A DNA stretch of 64,000 bases, taken from NCBI RefSeq assembly GCF_022788695.1, contig NZ_CP085154.1, positions 62,001 through 126,000 of the forward strand, in the 5' to 3' direction. The position numbers and the translations under genes are program-made. The stretch comes from Pseudosulfitobacter sp. DSM 107133 (GTDB lineage: Bacteria; Pseudomonadota; Alphaproteobacteria; Rhodobacterales; Rhodobacteraceae). Of the stretch, positions 3,286 through 38,506 are shown piece by piece. Below the pieces are notes generated by a model. It ran no database searches and was not told the DNA's origin. It saw only the letters and a program-made list of their open reading frames with translations. Numbering within the stretch: position 1 is the first letter of the stretch; each line of letters opens with the position of its first letter.

Positions 3286-3329
3286 GCTTGGCTTAGGGTC
3301 CAGACCCTTCTGTATCTCCGATCTGTTAT

Positions 3330-3500
3330 TGTTCCCCCGTCAGCGACCTTGGCCGAGGTCACTGACGGGACGGTGTATGGCGTCAGAGCCTTGTGGCCCA
3401 AGTTGAATTGGGACCACGTTTGCTAGCGAGCCAGCACTGTCTCTCTTCATCCATCTCGAACAGTTGCTTGTGGCCAGCTTGGACCACGGATCAGAAGGAA
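3330..3500 (+). ncRNA. Candidate IS110 bridge RNA, copy 1
   Basis: The transposon's left end can be read as a bridge RNA. A 5' stem-loop pairs 3336-3343 with 3362-3369 and 3345-3349 with 3356-3360. Two sister loops follow, each framed by CTTGTGGCC and GGACCACG. In the first, CAGAGCCT (3384-3391) equals the left target plus core at copy 2 (36960-36967), and GCTAG (3422-3426) is complementary to core plus right target CTAGC. In the second, ACAGTTGCT (3460-3468) equals the element's right end plus core (4472-4480), and CAGAAG (3492-3497) is complementary to core plus left end CTTCTG (3307-3312). The loop hairpins are 3393-3401/3408-3417 and 3470-3475/3481-3487, each with one bulged A. This is inference from pairing; RNA boundaries are approximate. 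Confidence 0.72.
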
Positions 3501-3506
3501 GAGAAC

Positions 3507-4466
3507 ATGAACAGGATAACACGAGACGCAATCCTTGGCATAGATGTCAGCCGCGATTGGCTGGACATTCATTGCCTGCCAAGCAATCAGAGACTTCGAT
3601 TGCCCAATTCCGAGGACGGGCATGCGCGCGTGGGCGCCCTGGCAAAGTCAGCCTGTGCGCTGGTTTGTTTTGAGGCCACAGGGGGGCAGGAATGGCGTCT
3701 GTGGTCGGCCCTCGACGTTGCAGGGGTCGCGACCAGGCAACTGCCGCCCGCGCAAATCAAAGCCTTTGCCGCCAGCCGGGGCACGCGGGCGAAAACGGAT
3801 AGGATCGACGCGGAGCTTATCGCGCGGTTCATGGCCTTTCGGCCTGATGCAGGGCGGACCTTGCCGCATGAAAAGATACGTCTTCTCAGGGCTTTGGTGT
3901 CCAAGCGTGGTCAGCTCGTCGAAACACGCAAACGGCTTTTGGCGCAAATCAAGGCGCATGCGAAACTGGGTTCGGATGATCTGTTCGACGTCATGGATGG
4001 TGACCTGAAAGACCTACTGGATCGCCAGATTGCAGGACTTGAGGTCCGGATCGAACAGATCATCGCCTCAGAGGAAGGCCTTGCCACGACTGCTGCCATC
4101 TTGCGTTCAGTTCCCGGCATTGGCCCGGTCGCCAGCACGATGTTGATCGCTGAAATGCCGGAACTCGGCCAGATCACGGGCGAACAAGCCGCCGCGCTGA
4201 CAGGCCTTGCGCCCATTGCCCATGACAGCGGCGCGATGCGGGGCAAGCGCGCTATCGGAGGCGGCCGGCGCCCGCTGCGACACGTTATGTTCCAGGCGGC
4301 GCTCGTCGCCAGTCACCACAATCCCGTCCTGAAGCCGTTCGCAGACCGCCTTCGCGAAGCCGGAAAACCACACAAAGTGATAATCACCGCCGTCGCAAGA
4401 AAGCTTGTGACAATCGTGAACGCCCTTTGCAAAAGTCGGCAGAAATGGACTACTCAACTCGCTTGA
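3507..4466 (+). CDS. IS110 family transposase (copy 1)
   Basis: This 319-residue recombinase has the N-terminal RuvC-like DEDD domain: ILGIDVSRDWLDIH with the first Asp, CFEATGGQEW with the Glu, and KTDRIDAELIARF with the last Asp pair. A coiled middle region follows. The C-terminal Tnp domain has SVPGIGPVASTMLIAEMPEL and HDSGAMRGKRAIGGGRRPLR, where the Ser of DSG is the likely nucleophile. ATG 3507 follows GAAGGAAGAG; upstream extension to a GTG at 3393 would run through the predicted bridge RNA. It moves the element by site-specific recombination guided by that RNA. Its protein sequence is identical to copy 2. Confidence 0.93.
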   Translation: MNRITRDAILGIDVSRDWLDIHCLPSNQRLRLPNSEDGHARVGALAKSACALVCFEATGGQEWRLWSALDVAGVATRQLPPAQIKAFAASRGTRAKTDRIDAELIARFMAFRPDAGRTLPHEKIRLLRALVSKRGQLVETRKRLLAQIKAHAKLGSDDLFDVMDGDLKDLLDRQIAGLEVRIEQIIASEEGLATTAAILRSVPGIGPVASTMLIAEMPELGQITGEQAAALTGLAPIAHDSGAMRGKRAIGGGRRPLRHVMFQAALVASHHNPVLKPFADRLREAGKPHKVIITAVARKLVTIVNALCKSRQKWTTQLA

Positions 4467-4478
4467 GAAATACAGTTG

Positions 4479-5123
4479 CTAGCTGCCCGGAACAAACGGG
4501 GCGTCATCGCCCCACAGCTCTTTGACCCGCTTGTCGCGCCCGCAGGCTTCCCGATAGGCCTTGTAGGCACTCGCTTTGGATTTGGGGCCAAAGCGGGTCA
4601 GCACCAGACCGGATTGCTTATAGTAATCCTGATGATAGGCGTCAGCTGGATAAAACGGCTGTGCGGACAGGATGGGCGTAACCACGGTCTTGCCCAAGGC
4701 GGCTTGGGCCTCGGTCTTGGCTTGTTGTGCTGCTTGCTTTTGCGCAGGATTGGCGGCGAAGATCGCTGTGCGATAGCTGTCGCCACGGTCGCAGAACTGG
4801 CCACCCGCATCCAGCGGATCGACAGAGCGGAAGAAAAGGTTCAGCAATGTGCCTGCTGTAACAATATCCGCGTCATAGGTGATTTGCACCGCTTCGTAAT
4901 GGCCAGTTCCGCCTGACACGACCTGCTTGTAGTTCGGGTTGGCCACGGTGCCCCCGGCAAAGCCTGATACGGCTTCTTTCACGCCTTTGACCTTTTCAAA
5001 GTCAGCCTCGACACACCAGAAACAGCCGCCGGCGACGGTAAGTGTTTTCATATCTGCGGCCTGAACAGCGGTGGCGGTGCCGACACAGGCGGCGGCGATC
5101 AAAAACAAACGTTGAAAAATCAT
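4479..5123 (-). CDS. msrA: Peptide methionine sulfoxide reductase MsrA, exported
   Basis: The 214-residue protein reduces the S-epimer of methionine sulfoxide using the catalytic Cys in [17 protein letters not shown]. It also carries conserved [15 protein letters not shown] and HQDYYKQS segments. The N-terminus ([22 protein letters not shown]) is a Sec signal peptide, so it acts in the periplasm, unlike the common cytoplasmic MsrA. Start 5123 has GGGAG 7 bases upstream; an in-frame ATG farther upstream lacks this. The stop codon TAG is built on the CT core (4479-4480) at the right boundary of IS110 copy 1, so the insertion lies immediately downstream but leaves the protein intact. Confidence 0.93.
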
Positions 5124-36704: not shown

Positions 36705-36966
36705 GGCTCTGGACCCATTAATTCTATATACTCAGCGGCGATTTCGCGAAATTTCAAAGGTTTGGGGCGTGCAGCCAATAGTGGTTCTATTTGCAAGCGA
36801 CCCAAGACGTTGAAATGAAGCGAAATCGCCGCCCTTCGGGTTTGACGGATTTTCCCGCAGCCTGCGGCGCATCTGCTTAAAATAGAACCACTATTCTTGC
36901 GCAAATGCTTCTTGTCTGCGAAAAAATCTGTCAAACTGAGTATATAGAATTAATGGGTCCAGAGCC
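36705..36966. mobile_element. MITE-like palindromic element with 31-bp terminal inverted repeats
   Basis: This 262-bp non-coding element has perfect 31-bp inverted repeats at 36705-36735 and 36936-36966, beginning GGCTCTGGACCC. Inside are a second perfect inverted repeat of 16 bp (36777-36792 and 36880-36895) and imperfect arms that fold each half on itself (36735-36756 with 36811-36832; 36842-36860 with 36917-36935). With the IS110 copy removed, both ends abut TA (36703-36704; 36967 joined to 38140), suggesting a TA target duplication as for IS630 or some IS5 relatives. It has no transposase, so it would need one in trans. Confidence 0.85.
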
Positions 36967-36988
36967 TTCTGTATCTCCGATCTGTTAT

Positions 36989-37159
36989 TGTTCCCCCGTC
37001 AGCGACCTTGGCCGAGGTCACTGACGGGACGGTGTATGGCGTCAGAGCCTTGTGGCCCAAGTTGAATTGGGACCACGTTTGCTAGCGAGCCAGCACTGTC
37101 TCTCTTCATCCATCTCGAACAGTTGCTTGTGGCCAGCTTGGACCACGGATCAGAAGGAA
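36989..37159 (+). ncRNA. Candidate IS110 bridge RNA, copy 2
   Basis: This is the same sequence as the candidate in copy 1: 5' stem-loop 36995-37028, target loop with left guide CAGAGCCT (37043-37050) and right guide GCTAG (37081-37085), donor loop with ACAGTTGCT (37119-37127) and CAGAAG (37151-37156). At this insertion site the left guide matches the target perfectly for eight bases, whereas copy 1's target has one mismatch. Confidence 0.72.
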
Positions 37160-37165
37160 GAGAAC

Positions 37166-38125
37166 ATGAACAGGATAACACGAGACGCAATCCTTGGCAT
37201 AGATGTCAGCCGCGATTGGCTGGACATTCATTGCCTGCCAAGCAATCAGAGACTTCGATTGCCCAATTCCGAGGACGGGCATGCGCGCGTGGGCGCCCTG
37301 GCAAAGTCAGCCTGTGCGCTGGTTTGTTTTGAGGCCACAGGGGGGCAGGAATGGCGTCTGTGGTCGGCCCTCGACGTTGCAGGGGTCGCGACCAGGCAAC
37401 TGCCGCCCGCGCAAATCAAAGCCTTTGCCGCCAGCCGGGGCACGCGGGCGAAAACGGATAGGATCGACGCGGAGCTTATCGCGCGGTTCATGGCCTTTCG
37501 GCCTGATGCAGGGCGGACCTTGCCGCATGAAAAGATACGTCTTCTCAGGGCTTTGGTGTCCAAGCGTGGTCAGCTCGTCGAAACACGCAAACGGCTTTTG
37601 GCGCAAATCAAGGCGCATGCGAAACTGGGTTCGGATGATCTGTTCGACGTCATGGATGGTGACCTGAAAGACCTACTGGATCGCCAGATTGCAGGACTTG
37701 AGGTCCGGATCGAACAGATCATCGCCTCAGAGGAAGGCCTTGCCACGACTGCTGCCATCTTGCGTTCAGTTCCCGGCATTGGCCCGGTCGCCAGCACGAT
37801 GTTGATCGCTGAAATGCCGGAACTCGGCCAGATCACGGGCGAACAAGCCGCCGCGCTGACAGGCCTTGCGCCCATTGCCCATGACAGCGGCGCGATGCGG
37901 GGCAAGCGCGCTATCGGAGGCGGCCGGCGCCCGCTGCGACACGTTATGTTCCAGGCGGCGCTCGTCGCCAGTCACCACAATCCCGTCCTGAAGCCGTTCG
38001 CAGACCGCCTTCGCGAAGCCGGAAAACCACACAAAGTGATAATCACCGCCGTCGCAAGAAAGCTTGTGACAATCGTGAACGCCCTTTGCAAAAGTCGACA
38101 GAAATGGACTACTCAACTCGCTTGA
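37166..38125 (+). CDS. IS110 family transposase (copy 2)
   Basis: The encoded 319-residue protein is identical to copy 1: DEDD RuvC-like domain at the N-terminus and serine-containing Tnp domain at the C-terminus. The frame is intact, so the element is probably active or very recently active. ATG 37166 follows the same GAAGGAAGAG leader. Confidence 0.93.
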   Translation: MNRITRDAILGIDVSRDWLDIHCLPSNQRLRLPNSEDGHARVGALAKSACALVCFEATGGQEWRLWSALDVAGVATRQLPPAQIKAFAASRGTRAKTDRIDAELIARFMAFRPDAGRTLPHEKIRLLRALVSKRGQLVETRKRLLAQIKAHAKLGSDDLFDVMDGDLKDLLDRQIAGLEVRIEQIIASEEGLATTAAILRSVPGIGPVASTMLIAEMPELGQITGEQAAALTGLAPIAHDSGAMRGKRAIGGGRRPLRHVMFQAALVASHHNPVLKPFADRLREAGKPHKVIITAVARKLVTIVNALCKSRQKWTTQLA

Positions 38126-38137
38126 GAAATACAGTTG

Positions 38138-38506
38138 CTAGCTTTCGGCGAGGGGCGACAGGCCGATGTTTTGCAGGATGCGTTCAATGTCGCCGGTGCT
38201 GAACGGTGCTGCAACGCGATAGCCGTCGTGCAGGACTTCGGCAAAGTTTTCGTCATCAACTCCCACGCGCACGGTCGTGATGCAGCGGTCGCGCAGCAGG
38301 TCCATCAGCGTTGGATCGGTTGAATTTGCAGCATTGCCCAACAAAAAAGCCACCTCTGGTGTGCCGATCTGTTTCAGCGCGTCAATTGCCAGGGGCACGT
38401 CATCTACATGGTTAATCGTTGCTGCTGGAATGCAGTCATCCAGAATCTGCGAAAGATCCTCTGCGATCAGCACATCGCCCTGCACAATCAGGAATTTCGT
38501 CGTCAT
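38138..38506 (-). CDS. Pseudo-receiver protein (receiver fold without phosphoacceptor)
   Basis: The 122-residue single-domain protein aligns by eye with response-regulator receivers: FLIVQGDVLIAEDLSQIL at the start, PEVAFLLGNA at the phospho-Asp strand and AAPFST near the end. The acidic pair is altered (QGD), the phosphoacceptor Asp is replaced by Leu or Gly, and the conserved Lys before Pro is Ala. It should therefore not be phosphorylated. The gene is divergent from the Crp/Fnr gene across 94 bases. Its TAG stop contains the right CT core of IS110 copy 2; the coding part is intact. Confidence 0.65.
   Translation of the reverse strand: MTTKFLIVQGDVLIAEDLSQILDDCIPAATINHVDDVPLAIDALKQIGTPEVAFLLGNAANSTDPTLMDLLRDRCITTVRVGVDDENFAEVLHDGYRVAAPFSTGDIERILQNIGLSPLAES

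Follow-up and report, generated by a model that had tools for sequence, protein, structure and literature searches.

The question raised by this locus is whether an insertion sequence carries, in its own left end, an RNA that leads it to its insertion sites, and what such an RNA would read. The window, which is the whole 64,000-nucleotide stretch of Pseudosulfitobacter sp. DSM 107133 analyzed here, holds the element on its forward strand at positions 3309-4480 (a length counted with one CT core). An earlier note, drawn up from the letters of the window, had described a complete bridge RNA in the left end of this element. The strings on which it relied are all present, i.e. the stem-loop at 3336-3369, CAGAGCCT at 3384-3391, GCTAG at 3422-3426, ACAGTTGCT at 3460-3468 and CAGAAG at 3492-3497. 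The description of 3309-4480 as an IS110-group insertion sequence with a predicted IS621-type bridge RNA encoded in its left end is essentially right.

An IS110-group element and its copies

The recombinase gene (3507-4466, forward strand) codes for a protein of 319 aa which contains the PF01548 and PF02371 domains and displays the DEDD character of the IS110 group. The protein scores 190.9 bits against the NCBIfam model NF033542 (IS110 RNA-guided transposase, cut-off 140), and two entries of the PDB set match it in sequence, namely IS621 (E 6.8e-28) and ISCro4 (E 1.2e-27). The non-coding ends are long on the left and short on the right, with 198 bp before the recombinase gene and 14 bp between the gene and the right core.

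Of the 17 matches returned by a search of the own assembly, 14 are copies with 99-100% identity, two are diverged left ends and one is short and weak. Nine aligned positions inside the element vary across the 14 copies, one of which (L014) bears a one-base deletion in the recombinase gene. The second copy in the window (L007) lies on the forward strand at 36968-38139, coordinates obtained by arithmetic from the assembly search. The two diverged matches (L015 and L016) are solo left ends of related elements; the first carries the guide TTGACC-CT at the target TGGACC-CT, which is the opposite strand of the palindrome described below.

Alignment of the 14 junctions defines the CT core, found at 3307-3308 on the left and at 4479-4480 on the right of the described copy. 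As in the IS110 group, long terminal inverted repeats are absent from the 14 junctions and no duplication extends past the core. The right junction reads ACAGTTG|CT|AG in 14/14 copies and is then followed by any base, so that the right target is AG (4481-4482 in the described copy). The left flank preceding the core is CAGACC in 12/14 copies and CAGAGC in the remaining two (L007 and L010). The left target guide, however, reads CAGAGC-CT in all 14, and the described copy, whose left target is CAGACC (3301-3306), therefore mismatches its own guide at one base. The identity previously noticed between CAGAGCCT and the left flank thus holds at copy 2 but not at the described copy, which has CAGACCCT and shares that C with 12/14 copies. 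Similarly, the target proposed as CAGAGC-CT-AGC was correct in its general form but is better written CAGA(C or G)C-CT-AG-N on the basis of the 14 copies. The right target guide had been read as the complement of CTAGC; CTAG is indeed present at 14/14 sites, but the base that follows varies among the copies. C was consequently rejected as a third base of the right target, and the guide is best read as CTAG. The discovery of further copies at unrelated sites would have spoken against the bridge RNA described in the earlier note, and all 14 copies found sit at CAGA[C/G]C-CT-AG.

The predicted bridge RNA

The putative bridge RNA extends over positions 3336-3504 of the forward strand, these limits being deduced from its fold and covarying stems. 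This stretch folds better than 200/200 dinucleotide shuffles (z -3.84). It opens with a 5' stem-loop (3336-3369) and continues with a target-binding loop (3373-3437), closed by the outer stem 3373-3381/3430-3437, and a donor-binding loop (3442-3504), for which folding and stem analysis indicate an outer stem at 3442-3448/3498-3504 and an inner stem at 3470-3475/3481-3487. Four predicted guides are distributed among the two loops. The target loop carries the left target guide CAGAGC-CT (3384-3391), which covaries with the left flank, and the right target guide CTAG (3423-3426), complementary to the CTAG of the 14 copies and shifting together with the target in one relative. In the donor loop, the left donor guide ACAGTTGC (3460-3467) is the same as the right-end region 4472-4479, and the right donor guide CAGAAG (3492-3497) is complementary to CTTCTG of the left end.

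The stems were evaluated on an alignment of the window copy with 53 relatives, from which L095, L097, L148, L151, L162 and duplicates were omitted. In this set of 54, 95.8% of the cells belonging to the 37 modelled pairs are paired, and 20/37 pairs undergo changes on both sides. The resulting covariation score is reached by 0/500 shuffles, the count of pair types by 30/500, and structures slid along the alignment score much lower than the modelled one. The signal sits in the 5' stem (10/12 pairs with both-side changes) and in the outer stem of the target loop (8/8); the remaining three helices contribute 1, 0 and 1 pairs. The outer stem of the donor loop, without any both-side change, is too invariant for a covariation test. 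None of the 4227 Rfam families of the library, which may or may not include one for bridge RNAs, matched the window at the gathering score.

The possibility that this RNA is a relic, no longer used, and that the copies spread by homologous exchange was also considered. The candidate RNA is known here from sequence alone, and the substitution G3373T, present in 6/14 own copies, unpairs the foot of the target-loop stem; both forms have spread nonetheless. The existence of 14 near-identical copies with differing right flanks, and with an intact gene in most of them, makes a relic very improbable. A bridge RNA with target and donor loops, as first proposed from the left end, is instead supported by the covariation of guides with targets, of guides with donor ends and of the stems in relatives; the guides are detailed below.

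Guides and targets among relatives

A scan of species genomes confirmed 135 loci, of which 80 were kept and 75 entered (L144, L145, L152, L155 and L163 being omitted). Fifteen of the latter have no recognizable left end, one has an N in its flank and one (L120) was excluded because its left end is false, leaving 58 relatives with a usable left end in addition to the 14 own copies. Guide and flank were compared over the eight bases preceding the core in 38 distinct pairs, L151 and L162 being omitted. The earlier note had suggested looking for such covariation in related genomes: 199/304 letters agree, a value reached by 0/10000 shuffles (mean 126.9, sd 11.7), although this shuffle ignores kinship. 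Taken separately, the fifth to second bases before the core each beat 2000/2000 shuffles, and the other four positions are weaker.

As relatedness is not accounted for by the shuffle, a sharper line of evidence is provided by a one-base switch among close relatives. The own guides read CAGA and the target has A in 14/14 sites; in relatives whose guide reads CTGA, the target has T in 33/37, the exceptions being L088, L104, L161 and L162. The Fisher probability of this association is 7e-10, or 2e-8 when the own sites are collapsed to 11. In a sister clade the guides read AAACAC, GAACAT and similar, with flanks that are mostly similar and two plain exceptions (L128 and L137). For the right target guide, a single relative (L143) displays clear covariation, with the different guide TAATAG facing the different target CTATTA. 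Some relatives present in a single copy (L087, L088) have a right guide that is at odds with its target. At the fourth base, a predicted A is accompanied by A in 5/17 rows and a predicted G by A in 3/50. A further relative (L086) has CT as its left core and TT as its right core, which would fit an original TTAG target.

The donor guides match the ends of the element itself. The right donor guide tracks the left end, CAGAAG occurring with CTTCTG and CATAAG with CTTATG, and 70/72 rows agree at the changing base. The left donor guide is nearly invariant among relatives. All four guides had been said to meet at CT, which is true of the 14 own copies, where the left donor guide continues from ACAGTTG into CT, but of 0/58 relatives, in which CA, AA, AC, AT, CC or GA is found. 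The CT core in the left donor guide was thus rejected as a general feature.

A covariance-model search matched 28/394 genomes of the family, own included. In the class, 3/385 genomes gave a match, of which one is the own genome, another had already been obtained within the family and the third is new and weak. A simple pattern recovered the left end of 16 of the 29 other loci of the family search, and 9 of these were new. Guide and flank agree at 5 or 6 of 6 bases in 6/9 new loci and match poorly in L217 (4 bases), L213 (3) and L209 (0). The guide of another clade fits the flanks of L218 and L224 as well as or better than their own guide. A new guide, TAGCTC, is found in L223 at the site TAGCCC.

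Guide and target are not always fully matched. In the second position ahead of the core, a G in the guide faces target C in 12/14 own copies and in 10/19 relatives, and guide C faces target C in 17/18 relatives (Fisher p 0.008, relatives only). In the own genome, 12/37 mismatched CAGACC sites are occupied vs 2/15 matched CAGAGC sites, so that the mismatch is no visible bar to insertion. Unoccupied CWGASCCTAG sites number 51, i.e. 38 CAGA (25 with C and 13 with G at the mismatched base) and 13 CTGA, many of which may be due to chance since the reversed control gives 28. If CAGA and CTGA sites were equally used, the probability of finding all 14 copies at CAGA would be 0.03, which makes this choice a weak test on its own. 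Natural IS110 targets are described as having mostly zero to two mismatches, and mismatches as being poorly tolerated in IS621 screens.

These results also bear on the proposal that the recombinase protein alone recognizes a CTAG-containing motif and that the matching RNA arms merely reflect shared ancestry. The free use of mismatched sites and the neglect of relatedness in the 38-pair shuffle would be in keeping with it. It does not account for a one-base guide change that pairs with a one-base target change in close relatives, for the joint alteration of right guide and right target in L143, or for the new guide of L223 at a near-matching site. Considering the guide/flank agreement over shuffles and the A/T switch, targeting by the protein alone is held most unlikely.

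Target sites and a proposed mechanism

The sites occupied by the 14 own copies fall into three sets. Five copies (L006, L007, L008, L010 and L011) adjoin the outer tip of a MITE-like element, which measures 260-346 bp, has inverted tips and is bordered on its other side by CTAG or TTAG. According to inverted-repeat and MITE searches, one such element occupies 36706-36965 of the window on the forward strand, its outer tip being the target of copy 2. The MITE is matched over its whole or nearly whole length at no fewer than 20 places in the genome, and unoccupied tips reading CAGASCCTAG were found; as 40/57 candidates were scored, MITE counts are lower bounds. In five other copies (L001, L003, L004, L005 and L012) the insertion interrupts a near-palindrome, [CT]TAGGGTCCAGACCCTAG, always on the strand reading CAGA. 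The last four (L002, L009, L013 and L014) show neither MITE tip nor palindrome by the tests used. A further repeat, CTAGGTCACATACCCATAAAAGGG, starts at the CTAG of several target sites (L003, L175, L176, L177 and L191).

The neighbors of the relatives were examined for transposase genes, with an IS5 query taken from L103 and an IS481 query taken from L138, both loci being among those counted. With a flank of at least 250 bp, an IS5-type transposase stretch lies at most 300 bp from the junction in 20/32 loci with a CTGA-type guide. In the sister clade, under the same flank condition, IS481 is present in 7/16 loci (one of them with IS5 as well) and IS5 alone in 1/16. Loci with flanks shorter than 250 bp gave a transposase match in 1/5 (CTGA-type) and 1/3 (sister clade). 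For the 14 own copies, no IS5 or IS481 gene was found at a distance of 300 bp or less. The IS5 element of L103, two pieces of which match NF033580 (one above and one below the cut-off), spans 839 bp between its outer tips and has a CTAG on either side, which places the insertion at the outer border of the inverted repeat. The far flank of the IS481 element of L138 is not CTAG. A partner for the inverted repeat could be located at the far end in 8 of at most 72 copies, five of which are own (flanks under 20 bp being skipped), and the identity of the flanks in relatives therefore rests mainly on the transposase matches. IS5-group elements prefer and duplicate a YTAR target, and IS481 elements prefer CTAG (NCTAGN); IS1384 may be IS5-like. 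Duplication of YTAR by the IS5 group would account for conservation on the right side stopping after four bases.

A dispersed host palindrome, comparable to the REP targets of IS621, could alternatively be the true target, the transposon tips being taken by resemblance. An 18-bp near-palindrome, CTAGGGTCCAGACCCTAG, is dispersed in the genome (e.g. window 3295-3308 together with 4479-4482), the 14-bp pattern GGTCNNGACCCTAG has 48 matches vs 1 for the reversed control, and by eye several of these palindromes directly follow stop codons. The five own copies that split [CT]TAGGGTCCAGACCCTAG-like palindromes are consistent with this proposal, which is possible but rather unlikely given that MITE tips hold as many own copies, that relatives lie beside IS5 genes in 20/32 and IS481 genes in 7/16 loci, and that five of five palindrome insertions are on the CAGA strand and none on TGGA.

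The flanks suggest instead a target consisting of a terminal inverted repeat's outer tip and a CTAR flank, to which the RNA would steer the element. To pass from one IS family to another, it is apparently sufficient to change the left target guide, since the right guide would read the shared CTAR and the left guide the repeat tip. We lean, with some reserve, towards the view that this IS110 clade occupies the borders of other insertion sequences: the right guide would read the CTAR site used by IS5- and IS481-type elements and the left guide their repeat tip, so that a switch to a local variant of the repeat would likewise require a change of the left target guide alone. Because the inverted repeat is not cut upon insertion, the transposon to which it belongs may still be able to move.

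The following mechanism can be proposed, its recombination steps being modelled on IS621. Excision would produce a circle in which the joined ends form a promoter. The second loop of the bridge RNA (ACAGTTGC, CAGAAG) would bind the circle junction and the first loop (CAGAGC-CT, CTAG) the target, following which the recombinase would swap strands at CT. Since the guide would read the outer tip of MITE or IS5-type inverted repeats and then CTAR, the element would come to lie next to other transposons, or wherever an isolated copy of the motif occurs. The predicted circle junction contains TTGCTT and TATTGT separated by 17 bp. At least 4/6 letters of TATAAT are found at that distance in 38/52 distinct junctions, a raw count without shuffle control. 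Expression of the bridge RNA may originate from these promoter-like boxes. Beside the core, the repeat ATACAG/CTGTAT is replaced by ACACA/TGTGT in the sister clade. As a whole, it is highly probable that this IS110-group element encodes a recombinase and a bridge RNA of the IS621 kind that reads repeat tips plus CTAR.

IS621 is reported to have a bridge RNA, and one is predicted for 85.7% of the IS110-group elements (PMC11208160); the junction of the IS621 ends makes a promoter and the right target guide is 4 nt long (PMC11208160, PMC11208158). The present element resembles IS621 in its left-end RNA, composed of a 5' stem-loop, a target loop and a donor loop, in a left guide of about 8-9 nt, a 4-nt right target guide and a CT core, and in a junction promoter (predicted here) and a short ATA/TAT repeat beside the donor (PMC11208160, PMC11208158). 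It differs by its guides, which appear to address inverted-repeat tips plus CTAR instead of REP, by the left donor guide of its relatives, devoid of core letters, and by the repeat beside the core, which is 5-6 bp long and covaries. Judging by the titles of the reports, IS4321/IS5075 insert in the inverted repeats of Tn21 and IS1383 in those of IS1384; these are likewise IS110-family elements entering the inverted repeats of other transposons. In contrast to them, the present element inserts at the outer edge of the repeat; IS4321/IS5075 are of the IS1111 group by title, whereas the present element belongs to the IS110 group with its RNA in the left end. In the seekRNA of IS1111 and IS110 elements, an element-encoded RNA also picks the target, but the accessible part of that report stresses IS1111 members with subterminal repeats of 11-13 bp (PMC11187229). 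Among the titles and abstract openings covered by our search, which extended to few subscription journals, no report of IS110-group elements aimed at IS5 or IS481 ends was encountered.

The mechanism itself is already established for IS621, and the target biology is modestly interesting. The one-base guide/target switches, and the sister clades aimed at different IS families, would constitute a natural experiment in guide evolution, and the own genome offers a multi-copy natural case of mismatch tolerance. The distribution of the insertions also suggests where such elements may find abundant sites at which they do little harm.
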